DNA of 64,000 nt, taken from positions 1,550,001-1,614,000 of the forward strand of contig NZ_CP027194.1 of assembly GCF_002970935.1 (NCBI RefSeq), written 5' to 3'. The DNA comes from Lactobacillus sp. CBA3606. GTDB taxonomy: Bacteria; Bacillota; Bacilli; Lactobacillales; Lactobacillaceae. The notes under the pieces are model-generated. The model did no database searches. It was not told where the DNA came from and saw nothing but the letters and a program-made list of their open reading frames with translations. Every line of letters starts with the position of its first letter. The first letter of the stretch is position 1. Made by a program: the position numbers and the translations under genes. Of this stretch, positions 28,624 through 37,122 are shown in pieces.

Positions 28624-30927
28624 TTAGGCCTGTACGGTCGTTTTAGCTGCTACTGCGGTAATGTAATCTAAGAAATTCCCGAAACATTGCTTCAAGAAGT
28701 GTTCGCTACCATCGTCATCTAAATGGTCGTTTTCATCAAATTTGGTGCCTGCTTGCGGTAACATAAATTCATTCCCCGGCATCACTTTAGCATCTACCCC
28801 TGGTGAATCCAGAATCTGCCGTAAGTTCATTTGTGCGCGGACCGTGCCTTGAATCCCTAAGGATGTCCCCACAATCATGACTGGCTTGTCCTTAAACGGA
28901 TGTTCCGCACATGATAACCATTCAATCGCACTCTTCAAAGCGGCTGGAATCGAGTGATCATATTCTGGTACCGCAATGACCACGCCATCAGCAGCGTCAA
29001 TTTTAGCTGCTAGGGCTTTGACGGTCGCTGGTTCGTTATCCAGATCATCTTCGTTAAACAACGGCAAGTCTTTGATTTCACAAATATCTAAGCTAGCTTG
29101 TGCATCCATTAAGTCCTTCATCGCATACAAAAGTTTTCGGTTATACGATTTTGAGGCATTAGTGCCGACAATCGCGACAATATTAGCTTCATCATCGCCG
29201 GCCTTTTGTTGCGCCTTGGCATTCTCACTCGCCGCCGCACCCGCAACGTAACCGGATGCAATTCCCCAAGTATTCATCATACTTGGCATTGAATCGTGAC
29301 CATTGGCGCCACCGATAACTTCACCGGCCCCAAAGTAGTTTGCTACTAAAGCATTCTTACTCGTCAATAATTGTAAGCTCTTAGAATCCGTGGTATAGCC
29401 ACCTAACGTGGTCGCAAACCGGTCACGTTGTTCGATAAGATAATAAGTATCGCCTTCATATTGATGTAAGTATTTCGGATCACGACCGAATTCACGATCA
29501 TGGCCAGCCTTAACGTAACCTTGATAATCAGAAACCGTCTGTGCGAGCCGGTCGGCATTTACGCCAGCTGCCTTGGCAACCGTCGTTAAGTCACCCTTAA
29601 CGAAAATTGGTCGCTTAGTGGTATCGGCAAAGAATCCTTTGATTTCTTGGGGAGTGAAGTCATGTAAAATCAAGAGATCGTAAACTTGTTTCCAGGTCCG
29701 TTCATCCATTAACAAGTAAGCAGTTTTGTCCGCTTGCTTTAAAATAGCATTCCGAAAAGCGGTGTACACGTTAGATTCATTAACAATCCGTTCACCCTTG
29801 GTGTTCACATAAATGGCACCCATATCCGTCGCTTGCTTTGAGGCATAAGTTGTTAACTTAGCAACCCCTGGTTCCACTTCAACCCCATGCGGATAGATCT
29901 TATACCAATCTAAGTCATGCGTTTGTAAATCCAAATCTGCATTAAATTCATAGGCATCACCCGTGGACGTCATTGGACCATAGTAATCAATCCCTTGGCT
30001 TTCAGCACCACGCATCTTTTGATTAGCCCCATGACCCCCCGTAGCTAAGACAACTGAGCGCGCTTTAATCTTAATCAATTGCCCATGTTGTTTACCGACT
30101 AAGCCGTTCAACTGACCTTGGCGGTTAAACGTTAAGGATTGAACTGGCGTATCTAATAAGATTTCGCCTCCCGCTGCCGTAAAGGCCCGCGAAACTTTTT
30201 GAATCAGTTCATAACTGCTAGCTGAAGGTAACTCGATTTGCCGATTAATTGAATGTTCCGGCGTTTGGGTTTGGGCTTTTTGGTAATGTAAGTCCGCAAA
30301 ATCACTAATAAAATCAATCGCTGGTCCAATATGGTCTACCATTAACTGGGTTAGAGCAGGATAGTTAGTTTCGAGACTTTCACGGGCAACATCCTGCGCT
30401 AACATTTCAGGCGTATCATGATTATTATCAAAAATCTGAGCAGATACTTTAGAGCCCGTCCCAACAACATTGGAGCCATTGAGAATCGTCGCACCCCCAA
30501 GATAACCATTCTTTTCAACTAGAATGACCTTTTGACCCATAGTTAACGCCCGACAACCCGCAACTAATCCGGCTTCACCACCACCGATAATCACAACATC
30601 CGTCCGCAGATGCTGCGTTGTCGTGGCTTTTTTAGCCTTCGGCACTGGGGTTAACGTAATCCCTTCGTCAGCGACCGCTTTTTGCGCGGAAGTCAATAGG
30701 GCTTGGGTCATCACGGTAGCACCACTAATCGTATCGACATTGAATGATTGTTCATCAATAATATTTTGTTTTAATTTATCAATGACTTGATTAAAAATTC
30801 CGGACGTTTCAGAATGTTTCAAGATTTTTAAATCTTCCACTTTATCATCTTGAACGTCAACTTCATAATTAATAATGCCATTATGGCCCATTGCTTGACC
30901 TTTAATTTGTTGTTCTGCTTTACTCAA
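28624..30927 (-). CDS. flavinylated FAD-dependent reductase with C-terminal flavin reductase domain
   Basis: A 767-residue three-domain cytoplasmic reductase. Residues 1-95 are an FMN-binding domain with the flavinylation motif DTISGAT (Thr71), the target of ApbE. Residues 108-575 are a fumarate-reductase-type FAD domain (VVIIGGGEAGLVAG; TGGHGANQKM; GERIVNE with the likely proton-donor Arg). Residues 580-767 are an NAD(P)H-dependent FMN reductase domain (VAIVGTNASKSYNRKL, VPEYDHSIPAALKSAIEWL). There is no signal peptide, so electrons probably pass from NAD(P)H through FMN to FAD and on to an enoate. The usual substrate His and Arg of fumarate reductases are not evident, and the neighbours are shikimate genes, so an unsaturated hydroaromatic acid is the inferred substrate. 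TTG start with AAGGGAG, overlapping apbE by 8 bp. Confidence 0.85.
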   Translation of the reverse strand: MSKAEQQIKGQAMGHNGIINYEVDVQDDKVEDLKILKHSETSGIFNQVIDKLKQNIIDEQSFNVDTISGATVMTQALLTSAQKAVADEGITLTPVPKAKKATTTQHLRTDVVIIGGGEAGLVAGCRALTMGQKVILVEKNGYLGGATILNGSNVVGTGSKVSAQIFDNNHDTPEMLAQDVARESLETNYPALTQLMVDHIGPAIDFISDFADLHYQKAQTQTPEHSINRQIELPSASSYELIQKVSRAFTAAGGEILLDTPVQSLTFNRQGQLNGLVGKQHGQLIKIKARSVVLATGGHGANQKMRGAESQGIDYYGPMTSTGDAYEFNADLDLQTHDLDWYKIYPHGVEVEPGVAKLTTYASKQATDMGAIYVNTKGERIVNESNVYTAFRNAILKQADKTAYLLMDERTWKQVYDLLILHDFTPQEIKGFFADTTKRPIFVKGDLTTVAKAAGVNADRLAQTVSDYQGYVKAGHDREFGRDPKYLHQYEGDTYYLIEQRDRFATTLGGYTTDSKSLQLLTSKNALVANYFGAGEVIGGANGHDSMPSMMNTWGIASGYVAGAAASENAKAQQKAGDDEANIVAIVGTNASKSYNRKLLYAMKDLMDAQASLDICEIKDLPLFNEDDLDNEPATVKALAAKIDAADGVVIAVPEYDHSIPAALKSAIEWLSCAEHPFKDKPVMIVGTSLGIQGTVRAQMNLRQILDSPGVDAKVMPGNEFMLPQAGTKFDENDHLDDDGSEHFLKQCFGNFLDYITAVAAKTTVQA

Positions 30928-31885
30928 TTGAATACACTCCCTTACGTCGCGGCTTCAAGCCACTCGTGACCTTAACTTGTTGCTGGCGATCGATAAAAAT
31001 TGCTTCGACCCCTGGTAATTGCTCGATGGTCGCCATGCCAGCCACACACCCTTGAAAATAACCCACCGTGGCTAGTACCTCGGCTAATTCTGATTGTGCC
31101 GTAATAATACTGACTTGGGCCACCTGATTTTTAACGGGATAGCCCGTTTGTGGATCAAGAATATGATGATACACTTGGGTGCCAACCTTAAAATATCGTT
31201 CAAAAATACCGGATGTCACAACGGTTTTAGCTGGCATTTGAACTTGCAATAATGGTTGTCCGCGTGGCGCGGTTGGGTTTTGAATCCCAACCTCCCAACG
31301 TTGATCGGCAGTGAACGGCTGTGTCCCTAGTAACTTAACATTACCACCCAAATTCACAATTGCTTGCGTGACACCAGCTTGTTGCAACTGGGCCACAATT
31401 TGATCTGCAAAGTAACCTTTCGCAATTGCACCCAAATCAAGCGCCATCCCGGCCCGTTGCAAATAAACGGTCTGGTGAATGGGGTCTAGCTTAACTTGAT
31501 CAGGATCCATCAAGGCTAGTCGTGCCTGAATACGCGCCGGACTGGGCACTTGTTGCCCCCCAAACCCGATCCGCCATAACTTGACTAACGGTCCAATCAA
31601 CACGTTAAAACTAGCCGAATATTGGCGTGTATAGGCTAGTGCTGCCTGAATTAATTGAAAACCCGGGGTACTGATTGCAACCGGCTGCTGACCGGCTTGT
31701 TGATTAATCGCACTTAATTCCGAATCTGGTCGATTCATTGAAAAAACTTGATCCATCCGTTGCAGATAGTCATAAATAGCTTCAATGACCGGCTGATTCC
31801 GTTCAAATAACGTTATTGAGATAACCGTGCCCATTAACGTAAACTGGGAAACGTATTTCTTATGCGTTGCATGTGGTGCCGTCAA
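30920..31885 (-). CDS. apbE: FAD:protein FMN transferase (ApbE family)
   Basis: A 321-residue ApbE-family flavin transferase, which attaches FMN to a Thr of a DxxSGAT-type motif in partner proteins. Signatures: DLGAIAKGYFADQI (about residue 151), TSGIFERYF, and the metal-binding HHILDPQTGYPVKN (about 238). No signal peptide or lipobox, so it acts in the cytoplasm, matching the cytoplasmic partner encoded next. The TTG start at 31885 has AAGGAG 9 nt upstream. Its last 8 bases overlap the start of the flavoprotein, whose Thr71 is the obvious target. Confidence 0.9.
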   Translation of the reverse strand: MTAPHATHKKYVSQFTLMGTVISITLFERNQPVIEAIYDYLQRMDQVFSMNRPDSELSAINQQAGQQPVAISTPGFQLIQAALAYTRQYSASFNVLIGPLVKLWRIGFGGQQVPSPARIQARLALMDPDQVKLDPIHQTVYLQRAGMALDLGAIAKGYFADQIVAQLQQAGVTQAIVNLGGNVKLLGTQPFTADQRWEVGIQNPTAPRGQPLLQVQMPAKTVVTSGIFERYFKVGTQVYHHILDPQTGYPVKNQVAQVSIITAQSELAEVLATVGYFQGCVAGMATIEQLPGVEAIFIDRQQQVKVTSGLKPRRKGVYSIE

Positions 31886-31906
31886 TGGTCACAGCTCCTT
31901 TTTTAT

Positions 31907-32665
31907 TTAGCTTAATTTCAAATCAGTTAATGTCGGTCGTAACCGGTCCAAGGCAATTTGCCCAGGCGCTGAGGCCGCACCAACCGTCGCAAAGGACAAG
32001 CAGGAGCCAAAAACTTCTCCCGCCAAGCGCGACACTTTACCCAAATCACCCATAGACATCGTAATCACCGGTTGAGTCAGGCTTTGGTGCGCTTCATTGG
32101 TCGCTGCCAGTAAGGTTAACACGTCATTTGACGTTTGTGGCATGACCGCCATCTTCGCAACATCGGCGCCAAAAGCCACCATACTGGTCAACCGTTCTAC
32201 AATATCAGCTTGCGCTGGCGTCTTGTCAAAATCATGATTACTCATAATGACGACGACTTTTTGCGCATGGGCTTGGTCAACTAATTGTTTCACCGCTACT
32301 TCATCATGATACCGTTCAACATCTAACGCATCCGTGAACTGGCCCGCTAATACCGTCGTATTAACTTTAAAGTAATCGGCATCGCTTAACGCTAATTCGC
32401 CACCTTCGCCTTGAGTTCTAAATGTGGTTAACAAGGCTAAATCGCCTAACGCTTGGCGTAACTGTTGACCGGTTTGTGTTAATTGATCTGGTTGCGTGAC
32501 GCCCTCATAAAAATCAATGCGCCATTCAACTAAATCTGGCTGGGCCGCTTTAATTGCCGGCACGGCCGCAAGAATTTCAGCCGTCGTTTTACCCGTAATC
32601 GGGACTGCAATTTTAGGCCGGCCAGCACCTAAGGTTAGGTGCCGTAATTTAACGATTTTTTGCAT
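31907..32665 (-). CDS. aroD: 3-dehydroquinate dehydratase, type I
   Basis: A 252-residue class I aldolase-type dehydratase interconverting 3-dehydroquinate and 3-dehydroshikimate by a Schiff base. Visible: PDLVEWRIDFYEG (about residue 45), the catalytic His region VIMSNHDF (about 142) and Schiff-base Lys in ADVAKMAVMP (about 169). The frame begins at 32701, but AAAGGAG lies 12 nt before ATG 32665, which also gives the normal length. It overlaps the MFS gene by 17 bp. Placement with a carrier and reductase suggests catabolic rather than biosynthetic use. Confidence 0.92.
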   Translation of the reverse strand: MQKIVKLRHLTLGAGRPKIAVPITGKTTAEILAAVPAIKAAQPDLVEWRIDFYEGVTQPDQLTQTGQQLRQALGDLALLTTFRTQGEGGELALSDADYFKVNTTVLAGQFTDALDVERYHDEVAVKQLVDQAHAQKVVVIMSNHDFDKTPAQADIVERLTSMVAFGADVAKMAVMPQTSNDVLTLLAATNEAHQSLTQPVITMSMGDLGKVSRLAGEVFGSCLSFATVGAASAPGQIALDRLRPTLTDLKLS

Positions 32666-33881
32666 GATTGAGACTGGCTCCTTTCTGAGTTGGTTTGCCA
32701 AATAAATGATAGTATCGAATCGTTATTAAGACTGCTAAGATAAAACCAATCAGCGCAATAATAACATCAAATAAGAAGATATTAGCTAAACTATCAGCCA
32801 TCATTCCGGTAACTAATGGAATTGTGAAGGAGGCAATTGAACCAGCCGTATAAAAGGCTCCGGTAATTGTTCCCTTACCTTGTGGGAAGAAGGTCGACAT
32901 AACCGTTAACCCTAATTGCATCACCCCACCGGCGGCTGAGAAACCAATGACAAATGACATAATTGAACACATCATCGCGGTTGGGAATAAGTACATTAAC
33001 AAAAGTGATAAGAATGACATTAACGTATAAATACCTAAAAATTGAATTTCTTTAACGGCGCGTTTGGCCAAAGCTGCGGTCACTAAGACACAAACAATCG
33101 AGCCGATACTATAATAACTAATCAACGCTCGTGACCCCGTGTCACCCATGCCGGCAACATGGGTCCCATATTGACTTAACCATTGGCTAACAAGATAAAA
33201 GGTGGCTTGTGAGACATAACCATAAAGGATAAACAAGGTGCCATCAAACCATAAACTACCTTTAGGTTTAGCAGCTGTTTCAGCTTTAGTGGCAGTAGTC
33301 GTCGTTGTACTAGCTTGATTGGCAACTGGAAATTTGCCAGAAACTAATAAGAAAATCAAGTTAATGACTAAAACAACAATACACAGAATAAATGACCAAC
33401 CATACCAATACTTACCAGCAACTAGAAAGCTAACCAATAAGGGTAATCCGAATTGTCCAACTGAGATAAAAGCTTTAATAATAACATTTGCGGTTCCTTT
33501 AGCATTCGGGAACATTTCCATTAAAGCTGGATAAGTCCCAGAATCTAAGAACGAGTTAGCGATCCCCGCTAGAATCCCAAAAATATACGCGATTGAGATT
33601 GACGGGCTCATTAAGATTCCCACAAAGAACAACAGATAAGTAATGACACCTAAAACAACGAATGGCTTACGACCAAATTTATCTGATAAAAATCCTGAAA
33701 CCAATAAGACAATTAAGCGACCAATTCCTAATGAAGAAATAACGACCGCTACACCACCTGTATTGGTATGCCATTGTCCAGCTAACGAATCCATGTTTTG
33801 GGCTAAAATAATGACCCCAATCCCATGAATAAAGTAGTTTAGGTATAGGCTAATTGCGGTTGGCATATACTTATTTTTCAT
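32649..33881 (-). CDS. MFS transporter, probable shikimate/quinate carrier
   Basis: A 410-residue major facilitator with about twelve membrane helices; the conserved loop between helices 2 and 3 reads SDKFGRKPF. Position inside an operon with shikimate dehydrogenase and dehydroquinate dehydratase makes uptake of quinate, shikimate or a related acid (or export of the product) the likely role; the substrate is not proven by sequence. Start ATG 33881 has AGGAGG 5 nt upstream. A close paralogue lies at 35923..37122 on the other side of the LysR gene. Confidence 0.85.
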   Translation of the reverse strand: MKNKYMPTAISLYLNYFIHGIGVIILAQNMDSLAGQWHTNTGGVAVVISSLGIGRLIVLLVSGFLSDKFGRKPFVVLGVITYLLFFVGILMSPSISIAYIFGILAGIANSFLDSGTYPALMEMFPNAKGTANVIIKAFISVGQFGLPLLVSFLVAGKYWYGWSFILCIVVLVINLIFLLVSGKFPVANQASTTTTTATKAETAAKPKGSLWFDGTLFILYGYVSQATFYLVSQWLSQYGTHVAGMGDTGSRALISYYSIGSIVCVLVTAALAKRAVKEIQFLGIYTLMSFLSLLLMYLFPTAMMCSIMSFVIGFSAAGGVMQLGLTVMSTFFPQGKGTITGAFYTAGSIASFTIPLVTGMMADSLANIFLFDVIIALIGFILAVLITIRYYHLFGKPTQKGASLNHAKNR

Positions 33882-33903
33882 GATATCCTCCTAAGCGCAA
33901 TTT

Positions 33904-34794
33904 TTATTTATGGTCAACAGCATCTTCATCAAATAAAATATGGCGAATATAATCAACTGGCATTTCTTTACCCGTCCATAACTTAAAGGCAGCTGCACCT
34001 TGTTCAAGCATCATGCCTAAACCGTTAAAGACATGTTCAACCCCAGCTGCTTGTGCAACTTTCATGAGTTTAGTCGTCCGTGGCGCATAAACAGTATCAA
34101 AGACAATCAAGTCCTTACGTAACCAACTAGGATCATCAATTAGCGTCTTGTCTTCCAATGGTTTCATCCCAACCCCAGTTGAATCAGTATAAATATCAGA
34201 ACTTTGAATTTCTTGTTTGAAATCAGCGCGATTTTCAAGTTCATGTAAGGTCGCTTTGCAATCGGTCCGTTCATTAATTAACTTAACATTACGTTCTGCA
34301 TTTTCCCAAGAAGCATCATGCATATTAAAGATCGACATCTCTTTAACGCCATCTAAAGCTGCTTGCACAGCAATGGCAGTCCCAGCGCCACCGGCACCAG
34401 CCAAAGTCATCTTTTGACCACGAATATCAATACCTTCATCTGCCAAAGACTTCATAAAACCAATGCCATCAGTTGTATACCCGGTTAGCACGCCATTATC
34501 ATTAACAACCGTATTAACCGCACCAACCATTTCAGCGGCAGGATCTAATTTATCTAACAATGGAATAACTTTTTGTTTATTAGGCATGGAAATATTAGAC
34601 CCACGCATATCTAAAGTTCTAATTGATTGAATCGCGCTTGGTAACGTCTCATTAGTGACTTCAAATGCTAAGTACGCATAATTTAATCCTAGTTTAGCAA
34701 AAGCATTGTTATGCATCGTTGGTGACATTGAATGTCTAATTGGATAAGCCATCAAGCCGATTAGTAATGTATGTCCGTCAATTCGTTCAGTCAT
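33904..34794 (-). CDS. aroE: shikimate/quinate dehydrogenase
   Basis: A 296-residue AroE/YdiB-family NAD(P)-dependent dehydrogenase. Substrate site SMSPTMHNNAF (about residue 21), catalytic Lys in ISMPNKQKV (where most AroE have NVTxPxK), Asp in YTTDGIGF, and nucleotide loop GAGGAGTAIAV (about 129). It oxidises or reduces C3/C5 hydroxyls of shikimate or quinate. Clustering with a carrier rather than with aro biosynthesis genes suggests a catabolic YdiB-like role. First gene of the operon, start ATG 34794 with AGGAG, divergent from a LysR regulator. Confidence 0.9.
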   Translation of the reverse strand: MTERIDGHTLLIGLMAYPIRHSMSPTMHNNAFAKLGLNYAYLAFEVTNETLPSAIQSIRTLDMRGSNISMPNKQKVIPLLDKLDPAAEMVGAVNTVVNDNGVLTGYTTDGIGFMKSLADEGIDIRGQKMTLAGAGGAGTAIAVQAALDGVKEMSIFNMHDASWENAERNVKLINERTDCKATLHELENRADFKQEIQSSDIYTDSTGVGMKPLEDKTLIDDPSWLRKDLIVFDTVYAPRTTKLMKVAQAAGVEHVFNGLGMMLEQGAAAFKLWTGKEMPVDYIRHILFDEDAVDHK

Positions 34795-34888
34795 AATTAA
34801 TTCACTCCTAAATAAAATTTATAATATTTTGTTACTCAATTCACTTGTCATCTTAGCAGATTGACTTATTATATTAAATAGGGTAACG

Positions 34889-34914
34889 TTGATTAATCAA
34901 TAGATATTTTCTAT
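34889..34914. promoter_or_regulatory. two adjacent dyads, candidate LysR binding sites
   Basis: TTGATTAATCAA (34889..34900, perfect 12-bp palindrome) abuts ATAGATATTTTCTAT (34900..34914, 5-bp arms, T-N11-A pattern typical of LysR-type sites). Both lie in the divergent region, just upstream of the LysR start. Confidence 0.55.
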
Positions 34915-34936
34915 GATTGAAAGGGGTATCATTTTC

Positions 34937-35866
34937 ATGAATTTACGCCACTTGATTTTCTTTAAGGAATTGGCGCGCACCCAACATATGTCGCAAGCCG
35001 CTGATAGCCTTGGTATCTCACAACCATCACTTAGTTATGCCATCAAAAAATTGGAAAAAGAATTGGGCGTGCCACTTTTTGAACCTGACGGCCGTAATAT
35101 TAAACTAACCCCAATCGGTGAGGTCTATCTGAAATATATCACTGCCAGCTTAAATGATTTATCACAAGGTAATGAGTTAGTTCACCAGTTGATGAATCCT
35201 GATACCGGTCACGTTAATTTAGGCTTTACTTACACCCTGGGTCAGCAGTTAGTGCCGGAACTACTCACTAACTTCCAAGCTGAGCCACAAAACAAGGCAA
35301 TTACGTTTGAACTTGGCCAAAGTAACTCTACCGCCCTATTACAAGACCTAGCCAACGAAAAATATGACCTGATTTTAGCTTCTAATATTGAAAAATTTGG
35401 TGATCAAGCCGCCGACAATCTCTTTGACTTTATTCCACTGGTGCAACAAGAAATCGTGGCCGCAATTCCTAGCCACCATCCCTTAGTAAGTAAAGACTCC
35501 TTAAAGGTCGCCGATTTAGCACCTTACCCCATGATCCTTTTTTCTAAAAACAGTGGGCTTCGACCGTTAATCGATCAAATCTTAGCACGCGCTAAATTAA
35601 CCCCTAAGGTTGCTTACGAAGTCGAAGAAGATCATACCATGGCTGGCTTTGTTCAACATAACTTAGGCGTGGCGCTCATGCCTTATTTACCATTGCTTAA
35701 TCAAACCAATGTTCACTTGAAGCATCTTATAAACCAACCGTTGCAACACCAAATATATCTAATCGTAAAACAAAATCACTTTATTACACCTTCTGTTCAT
35801 CGTTTCCAGGAATTCAGCCGCAGTTACTGTTGGCAACATTATACGAATCAAGAACGGTTGATTTAG
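34937..35866 (+). CDS. LysR family regulator of the hydroaromatic operon
   Basis: A 309-residue LysR-type activator: N-terminal winged HTH (MNLRHLIFFKELARTQHMSQ, then SLGISQPSLSYAIKKLEKELG) and a two-lobe effector-binding domain from about residue 90. Divergent from aroE, with two dyads between them, so it very probably controls that operon in response to quinate, shikimate or a derivative. The frame starts at 34913, but AAAGGGG 10 nt before ATG 34937 and the normal LysR N-terminus fix the start. Ends at a strong terminator. Confidence 0.9.
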   Translation: MNLRHLIFFKELARTQHMSQAADSLGISQPSLSYAIKKLEKELGVPLFEPDGRNIKLTPIGEVYLKYITASLNDLSQGNELVHQLMNPDTGHVNLGFTYTLGQQLVPELLTNFQAEPQNKAITFELGQSNSTALLQDLANEKYDLILASNIEKFGDQAADNLFDFIPLVQQEIVAAIPSHHPLVSKDSLKVADLAPYPMILFSKNSGLRPLIDQILARAKLTPKVAYEVEEDHTMAGFVQHNLGVALMPYLPLLNQTNVHLKHLINQPLQHQIYLIVKQNHFITPSVHRFQEFSRSYCWQHYTNQERLI

Positions 35867-35922: not shown

Positions 35923-37122
35923 TTACTTAGTCACAACTATTTTGGGCCGATATAAACTTAAAACAATCAGACTGCAGGCGACGCCAACCATCGCAATGCC
36001 AACATCAAACCACATAATATTTCGAATACTGACCCGCGAAATCCAGGCAGTAAACACCGGAATCGTAAACGAAGCCAACCCACTAGCCGTATAGTAAATG
36101 CCAGTAATACGACCCTTAGCCCGCGGAAAGACATCGCTCATAATGGTTAAGCCCAATTGCATCACGCCACCAGCGGCTGAACAACCAATGACAAAAGAAC
36201 AAACTAGCGCCACGCTCATCACCGGCACTAACGTTAAAACAATTAAGGCCAGTAACGAAATTAACGTGTTGATTAACATGAGCCACACGGCCTTAATAAC
36301 CCGTTCAACTAAAATAGCCGTCACGACGACCCCAAGAATTGAGCCAATACTGTAAATACTAACCAGCATCCGAGCATGGACCAAGTTAAGCTTAACCACT
36401 TCACTACCATATTTGGTTAACCACTGACTAACTAAGTAAAAAGTCGCCATCGACACATAACCAAAAATCGTTAAAACAATCCCTAATACTAACTGTCGCG
36501 GCTTTAGCCCAGTCGGTTTTGGGGCTACCTTCGTGACAGCTGGTTTAGCCGGAACAGTTGATAGCTTTGGAAACTGCCGTGCTCGTAATAGCATAAAATT
36601 AATAACCAATAGCCCGATGCACAGTAAAAATGACCAACCATACCATAAGGTCAAATGATCAAGTCCGGCCACGATGATTGGTAATAATAGCTCACCAATC
36701 GATGCAAACGCCTTAATCATAATATTGGCAGTTGCTTGTCGCTTGGGATACAACTCCATTAGTGCTGGATAAGTCCCAGAATCCAAAAAAGAATTTGCCA
36801 TCCCAGCTAAAATTCCAAAGCCATAGGCAACAATAATGGTCTTCGATAAAATAATACCGATAAAAAATAACGTATACGTTAAAATGCCAATCTGTACAAA
36901 AAACTTACGCCCAATTCGATCGGAAAAAGTGCCGGCAATATACAAAACTAGCAAGCGACCAATGCCTAGTGATGAAATAACTAATGAAACTCCAGCATCA
37001 TCAACGTGCCACTGTTGCCCTAAAACAGTCATGTTCTGAGCTAAAATAACAATGGCCATCCCATGGACAAGATAGTTGAGGTATAAGCAAATCGTCGTTC
37101 GGGTCCGTTCTATCTGAGTCAT
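35923..37122 (-). CDS. MFS transporter, paralogue of the shikimate-operon carrier
   Basis: A 399-residue twelve-helix major facilitator clearly paralogous to the protein at 32649..33881. Both share LYLNY.(I/V)HG near the N-terminus, ISSLGIGRL.VL, GILAGMANSFLDSGTYPALME and VIG.SAAGGVMQLGLT. The pair flanks the LysR gene, so this copy may carry another hydroaromatic acid or export the reduced product. Start ATG 37122 follows AGGTG. It is transcribed alone on the minus strand. Confidence 0.83.
   Translation of the reverse strand: MTQIERTRTTICLYLNYLVHGMAIVILAQNMTVLGQQWHVDDAGVSLVISSLGIGRLLVLYIAGTFSDRIGRKFFVQIGILTYTLFFIGIILSKTIIVAYGFGILAGMANSFLDSGTYPALMELYPKRQATANIMIKAFASIGELLLPIIVAGLDHLTLWYGWSFLLCIGLLVINFMLLRARQFPKLSTVPAKPAVTKVAPKPTGLKPRQLVLGIVLTIFGYVSMATFYLVSQWLTKYGSEVVKLNLVHARMLVSIYSIGSILGVVVTAILVERVIKAVWLMLINTLISLLALIVLTLVPVMSVALVCSFVIGCSAAGGVMQLGLTIMSDVFPRAKGRITGIYYTASGLASFTIPVFTAWISRVSIRNIMWFDVGIAMVGVACSLIVLSLYRPKIVVTK

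Follow-up and report, generated by a model that had tools for sequence, protein, structure and literature searches.

A quinate/shikimate operon of Lactobacillus sp. CBA3606 and its proposed NAD(P)H-linked, ApbE-flavinylated ene-reductase

Why should enzymes of the shikimate pathway be encoded together with a flavin transferase and a soluble three-domain flavoprotein? The question arises from a 64,000-nucleotide stretch of the Lactobacillus sp. CBA3606 genome (NZ_CP027194.1, positions 1,550,001 to 1,614,000; here denoted the window), in which aroE, a gene for a major facilitator superfamily (MFS) transporter, aroD, apbE and the flavoprotein gene follow one another on the minus strand. An earlier note on this DNA had described five tightly spaced or overlapping genes, and the coordinates bear this out: from aroE to the flavoprotein gene the gaps are 22, -53, 21 and -8 bp, with AroD taken from its listed start, TTG 32701 (frame 31907-32701). 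The more likely start of AroD is ATG 32665, which has the ribosome site AGAAAGGAG ahead of it; the overlap with the MFS gene would then be 17 bp. The host genome measures 2.56 Mb and is 99.99% complete, and its flavoprotein is nearest to that of Lactiplantibacillus. The comparisons below suggest that the operon probably imports plant quinate or shikimate, makes 3-dehydroshikimate and reduces its C=C bond with NAD(P)H, as a soluble electron sink.

The flavoprotein carries three domains, all past the Pfam cut-offs: FMN_bind at residues 14-85 (PF04205, 48.8 bits), FAD_binding_2 at 110-546 and FMN_red at 582-726, the last being the fused flavin reductase domain already recognised in the earlier note. 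The segment DTISGAT, also picked out there, ends at Thr71 (codon 30717-30715) and matches the published flavinylation motif D-x-x-[S/T]-G-A-[S/T] (PMC12052999; this and the other PMC numbers refer to excerpts of the papers), so that motif and FMN_bind domain would place the protein among those flavinylated by ApbE. Of the 42 family rows, 39 show Thr or Ser at position 71 and three have no letters there; the 42-row column counts include the fragments L038, L039 and L041.

We aligned the FAD part with the fumarate reductase FccA and the urocanate reductase UrdA. All four FccA residues that we take to bind fumarate or to act in catalysis are replaced: Arg402 by Tyr388, Arg544 by Ser546, His504 by Ala505/Thr506 and His365 by Tyr345 (FccA numbering first). 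The replacements hold throughout the family, with Tyr388 in 41 of the 42 rows (one gap), Thr506 in 41, and Ser546 and Tyr345 in every row. Titles among the structure matches name His365, Glu378, Arg381, Arg402 and His505 mutants, and a 474-aa paralogue of the host genome (C1:1752531) keeps His, Arg, His and Arg at the four positions. Because all four residues are replaced family-wide, the flavoprotein, judged by alignment, has the fold of a fumarate reductase and is not a fumarate reductase; of the 'fumarate-reductase-type FAD domain' described earlier, the fold stands and the fumarate residues do not.

The structure model of the flavoprotein (26 sequences; A1 took in 26 of the 42) has a predicted local distance difference test score (pLDDT) of 83.5 and a predicted template modelling score (pTM) of 0.82. 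Its best Foldseek match is urocanate reductase (6t85/6t86; TM score 0.81-0.85 by target length), followed by FccA, KstD and cyclohexanone dehydrogenase. Among solved structures, UrdA is thus nearest in fold to the FAD part; it has Arg at the positions of Tyr388 and Ser546, and its donor and substrate differ. The corresponding cap domain of Lactiplantibacillus plantarum, 77% identical, has been solved by nuclear magnetic resonance as a 160-residue structure named fumarate reductase (2lfc). The nearest homologues found outside the family are sister flavoproteins of other Lactobacillales genomes (L114-L125; 29-33% identity), which keep SGA[S/T], have Asn at 388 and Ser at 546, and show KIYPNG or KTYPNG where the operon family has KIYPHG. 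Compared with them, with the three fragments left out, 37 polar positions are family-specific (at most one exception in 39 family rows, presence in at most one of the 12 sister sequences), among them His225, His347, Tyr388, Arg392 and His544. Seven of the 12 sister flavoproteins are 966-971 aa long and have an extra N-terminal region.

Named genomes scanned by pattern for the flavoprotein yielded 41 loci in 12 named genera, metagenome-assembled genomes (MAGs) and strains of the same species included. These loci are not all independent: one MAG is the source of both L035 and L037, and L038, L042 and L044 bear the same species label. Within the DNA covered, AroE is present in 39 of these loci, AroD in 38, an MFS transporter in 33, LysR in 30, ApbE in 24 and an FMN_red domain in 23. 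The order in the host is AroE-MFS-AroD-ApbE-flavoprotein; Lentilactobacillus and Companilactobacillus have AroD-ApbE-flavoprotein-AroE, Bombilactobacillus has AroD-flavoprotein-AroE, and three loci of Tetragenococcus and Ligilactobacillus (L030, L031, L033) have a sugar-isomerase-like gene, a short-chain dehydrogenase/reductase (SDR), MFS, flavoprotein, AroE and AroD. In Ligilactobacillus pobuzihii the flavoprotein and AroD are fused in one 825-codon frame without a stop (L034:8998-11472), and the AroD half aligns with the host AroD over its length. On this comparative evidence, the pairing of the flavoprotein with AroE and AroD is beyond chance. In a tree built on the FAD part, the FMN_red fusion arises late and once and is lost once, in L027; the node in question has a support of 0.14, and the tree is not relied on. 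The operon genes are broken into several frames in L022 (4917-7963), L038, L039 and L041, which suggests that some species are losing the pathway.

Of 301 genomes sampled from the taxonomic family, 34 contain a member of the flavoprotein family. Profile searches matched 29 of 395 genomes at the level of the order, 12 of them in the sister tier, and at the level of the phylum one of 398 at 1e-80, the host genome itself. Megablast of the whole operon against plasmid records gave no match; tblastn of the flavoprotein gave 28, all Ligilactobacillus. With the fused protein as query, tblastn matched 35 plasmid records. The 28 that cover both parts are all from L. salivarius, each has shikimate dehydrogenase and aroD listed in the matched stretch, and at least ten of them recur from the search with the flavoprotein alone; the remaining seven (four L. 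salivarius, three Listeria) match nothing but the AroD half. Plasmid pMP118 of L. salivarius UCC118 (L136, 7271-12365) carries LysR, a sugar isomerase/epimerase-like gene, SDR, flavoprotein, AroE and AroD, which makes the proposal directly testable in a named strain. The L. salivarius megaplasmids with the operon come from various hosts, human, pig and poultry among them; in the two that were read, IS3 transposases and a gene for choloylglycine hydrolase lie nearby.

AroE is the single PF08501 match of the host genome (Shikimate_dh_N, 106 bits) and thus the only AroE found there. It matches the structures of YdiB (1npd, E 6e-88) and of a Listeria enzyme (3tnl, E 3e-110), and scores 526 with the NCBIfam 'shikimate dehydrogenase' model PRK00258.2-1 (above its 431) and 328 with the YdiB equivalog PRK12749 (below its 349). 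AroE and YdiB have in common the segments HSxSP, SMPNK, NTxVND, TDG and QGA, presumably the substrate-binding ones; domain and segments are consistent with a quinate/shikimate dehydrogenase. AroD is a standard type I dehydratase (DHquinase_I). In host coordinates, AroE lies at 1584507 and the two AroDs at 1581934 and 1138803; three other full-length FAD_binding_2 proteins, at C1:1752606, 1912636 and 1421775, are far from all of these. In one relative (L025:11690-13462) the AroE frame runs over 591 codons with a Pfam match at the N-terminal part only, possibly a frameshift or a fusion.

For substrate and direction, the path of the electrons, transport, regulation and every later step we infer the following. 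The MFS transporter would import plant quinate or shikimate, the YdiB-like AroE would oxidise quinate to 3-dehydroquinate or shikimate to 3-dehydroshikimate, and AroD would dehydrate 3-dehydroquinate to 3-dehydroshikimate. The flavoprotein would then reduce C1=C2 of 3-dehydroshikimate, electrons passing from NAD(P)H first to the FMN_red flavin, then to the covalent FMN that ApbE places on Thr71, and on through FAD to the substrate, with Tyr388 standing where reductases of the same fold have their catalytic arginine. Finally, AroE could reduce the remaining ketone to give dihydroshikimate, so that each hydroaromatic would take up one NADH net. 3-Dehydroshikimate is the likeliest substrate and is preferred over shikimate because AroE and AroD converge there, because its C=C bond is conjugated with, and activated by, ketone and carboxylate, and because of the AroD fusion. 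The earlier note had proposed a reduction of imported quinate or shikimate; comparative evidence upholds the coupling to AroE and AroD, the cytoplasmic ApbE/FMN/FAD/NAD(P)H relay and the role as electron sink, and we have changed the substrate to 3-dehydroshikimate and added a likely anabolic use of AroE and AroD.

Relatives with an SDR and a sugar-isomerase-like gene may go further, by dehydration and another reduction, to dihydroxycyclohexanecarboxylate. The SDR cluster is present in 12 of the 41 loci (the SDR of L016 is different, by eye) and the sugar-isomerase-like triosephosphate isomerase (TIM) barrel in seven. The SDR matched 237 NCBIfam models, trans-4-hydroxycyclohexanecarboxylate dehydrogenase standing at rank 24; the TIM barrel matched Listeria Lmo2234 strongly and QuiC and IolI weakly. 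Two AroE copies of another type lie beside the SDR/TIM-barrel genes in L005, L007, L027 and L043. We regard SDR, TIM barrel and extra AroE copies as candidates for the later steps, including hydroxyl removal.

Table 1. Genes, codons and intergenic block of the quinate/shikimate locus, by position in the window
Feature	Position	Strand	Basis and remarks
Flavoprotein, 767 aa; proposed NAD(P)H:3-dehydroshikimate ene-reductase	28624..30927	-	Pfam, structure model; TTG start with GGGAG site
Ser546 codon, position of FccA Arg544 (fumarate binding)	29290..29292	-	Ser in 42/42 rows
Tyr388 codon, position of FccA catalytic Arg402	29764..29766	-	Alignment to FccA and UrdA
ApbE FAD:protein FMN transferase, no recognisable export signal	30920..31885	-	PF02424, 266 bits; without lipobox
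AroD, type I 3-dehydroquinate dehydratase	31907..32665	-	PF01487, 234 bits; NCBIfam aroD above cut-off; start re-read
MFS transporter, proposed quinate/shikimate importer	32649..33881	-	PF07690; substrate inferred
AroE, near quinate/shikimate dehydrogenase YdiB	33904..34794	-	NCBIfam PRK00258.2-1 above cut-off
Invariant block TTGTTACTCAATTCACTTG, LysR/aroE intergenic; possible operator/promoter	34829..34847	.	Aligned regions
Divergent LysR regulator	34913..35866	+	Pfam HTH_1 and LysR_substrate
Second MFS transporter, same kind as that of the operon	35923..37122	-	Often adjoins LysR gene in relatives

Is the relay cytoplasmic, and how would the flavoprotein acquire its FMN? Neither the flavoprotein nor ApbE has a lipobox, and on a simple hydropathy scale (not a signal-peptide predictor) their best 12-residue N-terminal values are 0.16 and 1.85, beside 1.84 for the 474-aa paralogue, which is without a lipobox, and 3.03 and 2.62 for two lipobox proteins of the host genome; this agrees with the earlier statement that neither protein has an export signal. 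The wording 'self-flavinylated', used at the same time, was imprecise: since ApbE is a separate gene, it should modify the flavoprotein in trans. Precedent comes from the cytoplasmic fumarate reductase of Klebsiella pneumoniae, likewise soluble and flavinylated by an ApbE that has no signal peptide (PMC12052999); the operon flavoprotein differs from it, compared by description only, in having no fumarate residues and in standing beside AroE and AroD. It would be a variant among the ApbE-flavinylated soluble C=C reductases. Elsewhere in the host genome, L060 (C1:17500-23500) has a lipobox ApbE beside a lipoprotein with repeated GAT-type motifs and a frame like type II NADH dehydrogenase (NDH-II), read by eye as a locus of flavin-based extracellular electron transfer.

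Could the same genes serve biosynthesis instead? Imported quinate would then be converted to shikimate for chorismate in species whose upper pathway has been lost, the flavoprotein having a side role or acting on an unrelated compound. As a full account of the operon we consider this unlikely. We compared 21 genomes of the genus, several of them evidently the same assemblies as the named loci. Synthases for 3-deoxy-D-arabino-heptulosonate 7-phosphate (DAHP; searched as PF00793) and 3-dehydroquinate (DHQ) were not found in the same 13 genomes, including the host, where type II DAHP synthase was not searched; the host keeps chorismate synthase, in a cluster read by eye as also holding 5-enolpyruvylshikimate 3-phosphate (EPSP) synthase, TyrA and shikimate kinase, and has the one AroE. 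One genome without the flavoprotein, G099, retains only AroD and AroE at its GalM locus, without ApbE, MFS and LysR, and has chorismate synthase. All of this fits salvage. Against it, all eight genomes with DAHP and DHQ synthase (G172, G193, G227, G243, G287, G302, G304, G305) also have the flavoprotein. These eight carry the two synthases beside another AroE (by coordinates in 8/8; read in G305). The flavoprotein is present in 19 of the 21 genomes and chorismate synthase in 17; the four without the latter (G125, G211, G258, G306) are all among the 13. In three of them, G211, G258 and G306, the operon is complete although no synthase for chorismate, DAHP or DHQ was found, and so it serves something other than chorismate; plain aromatic biosynthesis is insufficient to explain it. 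G258 and G306 look closely related and may represent two events with G211 rather than three. In G125 neither the flavoprotein nor AroE was found.

Since G211, G258 and G306 are without chorismate synthase and G099 is without the flavoprotein, the sink arm and the biosynthetic arm are separable, as far as gene content goes: each can be absent while the other remains. 3-Dehydroshikimate reduction remains the preferred function, to which anabolic use of the host AroE and AroD is likely to be added, because the genome yielded no other AroE and neither of the two enzymes that open the shikimate pathway was found in it. Species without the upper pathway could send shikimate on to AroK-AroA-AroC through this uptake and the AroD and AroE reactions. 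A broader claim is more tentative: that the Lactobacillales hold a family of NAD(P)H:3-dehydroshikimate ene-reductases, with Tyr for the catalytic Arg, which makes plant hydroaromatics soluble electron acceptors, encoded on chromosomes and on megaplasmids of a commensal of humans and animals, and that in species without the upper pathway scavenged shikimate also enters by way of the operon, the import being split between redox balancing and aromatic biosynthesis.

Plant quinate occurs together with hydroxycinnamates, and the flavoprotein might accordingly reduce caffeate or another hydroxycinnamate released with quinate from chlorogenate, AroE and AroD handling the quinate half. HcrB (lp_1425) of L. 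plantarum gives this idea some substance: it is a flavoprotein that depends on NADH, contains a COG0431 (FMN reductase) domain and reduces the C=C bond of hydroxycinnamates (PMC10295242), the chemistry and domain proposed here. Yet the host already has an HcrB-like protein, in which the domain order (by eye FMN_red - FAD - FMN_bind), the active-site residues, with His where Tyr388 stands, and the neighbours all differ from those of the operon flavoprotein. Judged against this paralogue only, as HcrB itself was not aligned, the operon flavoprotein has neither the domain order nor the active site of the HcrB type. In addition, the AroD fusion links the enzyme to the dehydroquinate step, and none of the recurrent neighbour clusters, few of which were named, by eye or Pfam, stood out as an esterase. 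We think a hydroxycinnamate substrate improbable. A third ApbE of the host genome (L061:2114-3118), without lipobox, stands alone and possibly serves the HcrB-like protein.

An oxidative dehydrogenase that desaturates the ring, in the manner of 3-ketosteroid or 4-oxocyclohexanecarboxylate dehydrogenases, is very improbable: sequence and fold matches to KstD, cyclohexanone dehydrogenase and the ChcC1/ChcC2 models (all below the NCBIfam cut-offs) and the Tyr in place of the reductase Arg speak for it, but urocanate and fumarate reductases are the best fold matches, and the FMN_red fusion in fermentative organisms would favour reduction. Least probable of all is fumarate reduction, suggested by the fold, by the name given to 2lfc and by the assignment of lp_3491 to EC 1.3.5.4 in a citrate-to-succinate route (PMC4895336); the active-site comparison rejects it, a paralogue with the full residue set exists in the host, and AroE adjoins in 39 of the 41 loci.

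Several observations weigh against 3-dehydroshikimate reduction or narrow what supports it. Within the DNA covered, ApbE is not in the locus in 17 of the 41 cases, two Tetragenococcus loci (L032 and the frameshifted L039) have neither AroE nor AroD, and L027 has no AroD. Four L. salivarius plasmids match the AroD half of the fusion without the flavoprotein. Position 71 is Ser in five of the 39 rows with a letter, and UrdA shares the Tyr at the position of FccA His365. The sister family likewise has no FccA arginines, so that their absence argues against fumarate without pointing to hydroaromatics, and the loss is not special to the AroE-linked family. Confidence of the structure model is low (block means 50-64) at 301-330, 341-360, 501-510 and 541-550, where most of the compared active-site loops lie. 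The single AroE and the upper pathway not found in the host allow the biosynthetic reading, and in the published transcriptomes other reductase genes, lp_1425 for example, rose in the same experiments as the genes considered next.

In L. plantarum, cranberry fractions raised the expression of lp_3490 in several media and that of lp_3491 in a single medium, FOS+PAC2 (PMC8004764); lp_3491 also rose in carrot juice, confirmed by quantitative reverse transcription PCR and read by the authors in terms of the tricarboxylic acid cycle and fumarate (PMC4895336). From names and order, lp_3491 would be the FMN/FAD part and lp_3490 the FMN_red part of the flavoprotein, and the upregulation counts for 3-dehydroshikimate reduction only if these genes are its orthologue. 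No report linking the genes to hydroaromatic reduction was found among the open-licence papers listed; lp_3489-lp_3494 are mentioned in two papers of that literature. Lactobacilli are said to reduce quinate and shikimate to saturated cyclohexane carboxylates; Whiting and Coggins reportedly described this quinate/shikimate metabolism in 1971 and a dihydroxycyclohexanecarboxylate in 1974, the reaction class and organisms being those predicted here. We know of no gene assignment for that conversion. If the proposal is right, it would name the genes for a plant-acid reduction of lactobacilli reported some 50 years ago, correct the 'fumarate reductase' label of the published transcriptome and give the flavin-dependent C=C reductases a further class of substrate. 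It would also predict redox balance of food and gut lactobacilli from quinate-rich plants and explain chorismate synthesis in species without detected DAHP or DHQ synthase.

Upstream of aroE, the 19-bp block TTGTTACTCAATTCACTTG is invariant in 10 of 10 aligned LysR/aroE intergenic regions, two of which are identical, leaving nine distinct. A promoter-like match overlaps the block; the 23 matches of this kind in the region are no excess over chance (16.9 +/- 4.7 expected). The likely start of LysR is the second ATG, 34937, which lies behind GAAAGGGG. By conservation of neighbourhood, the LysR gene and the second MFS gene go with the operon, because relatives of both recur in related loci. A further MFS transporter of the host (L093:6617-8158; C1:187116-188657) is related to that of the operon (298 bits with MFS2); it lies directly before chorismate synthase and has a C-terminal tail that resembles chorismate mutase by eye.

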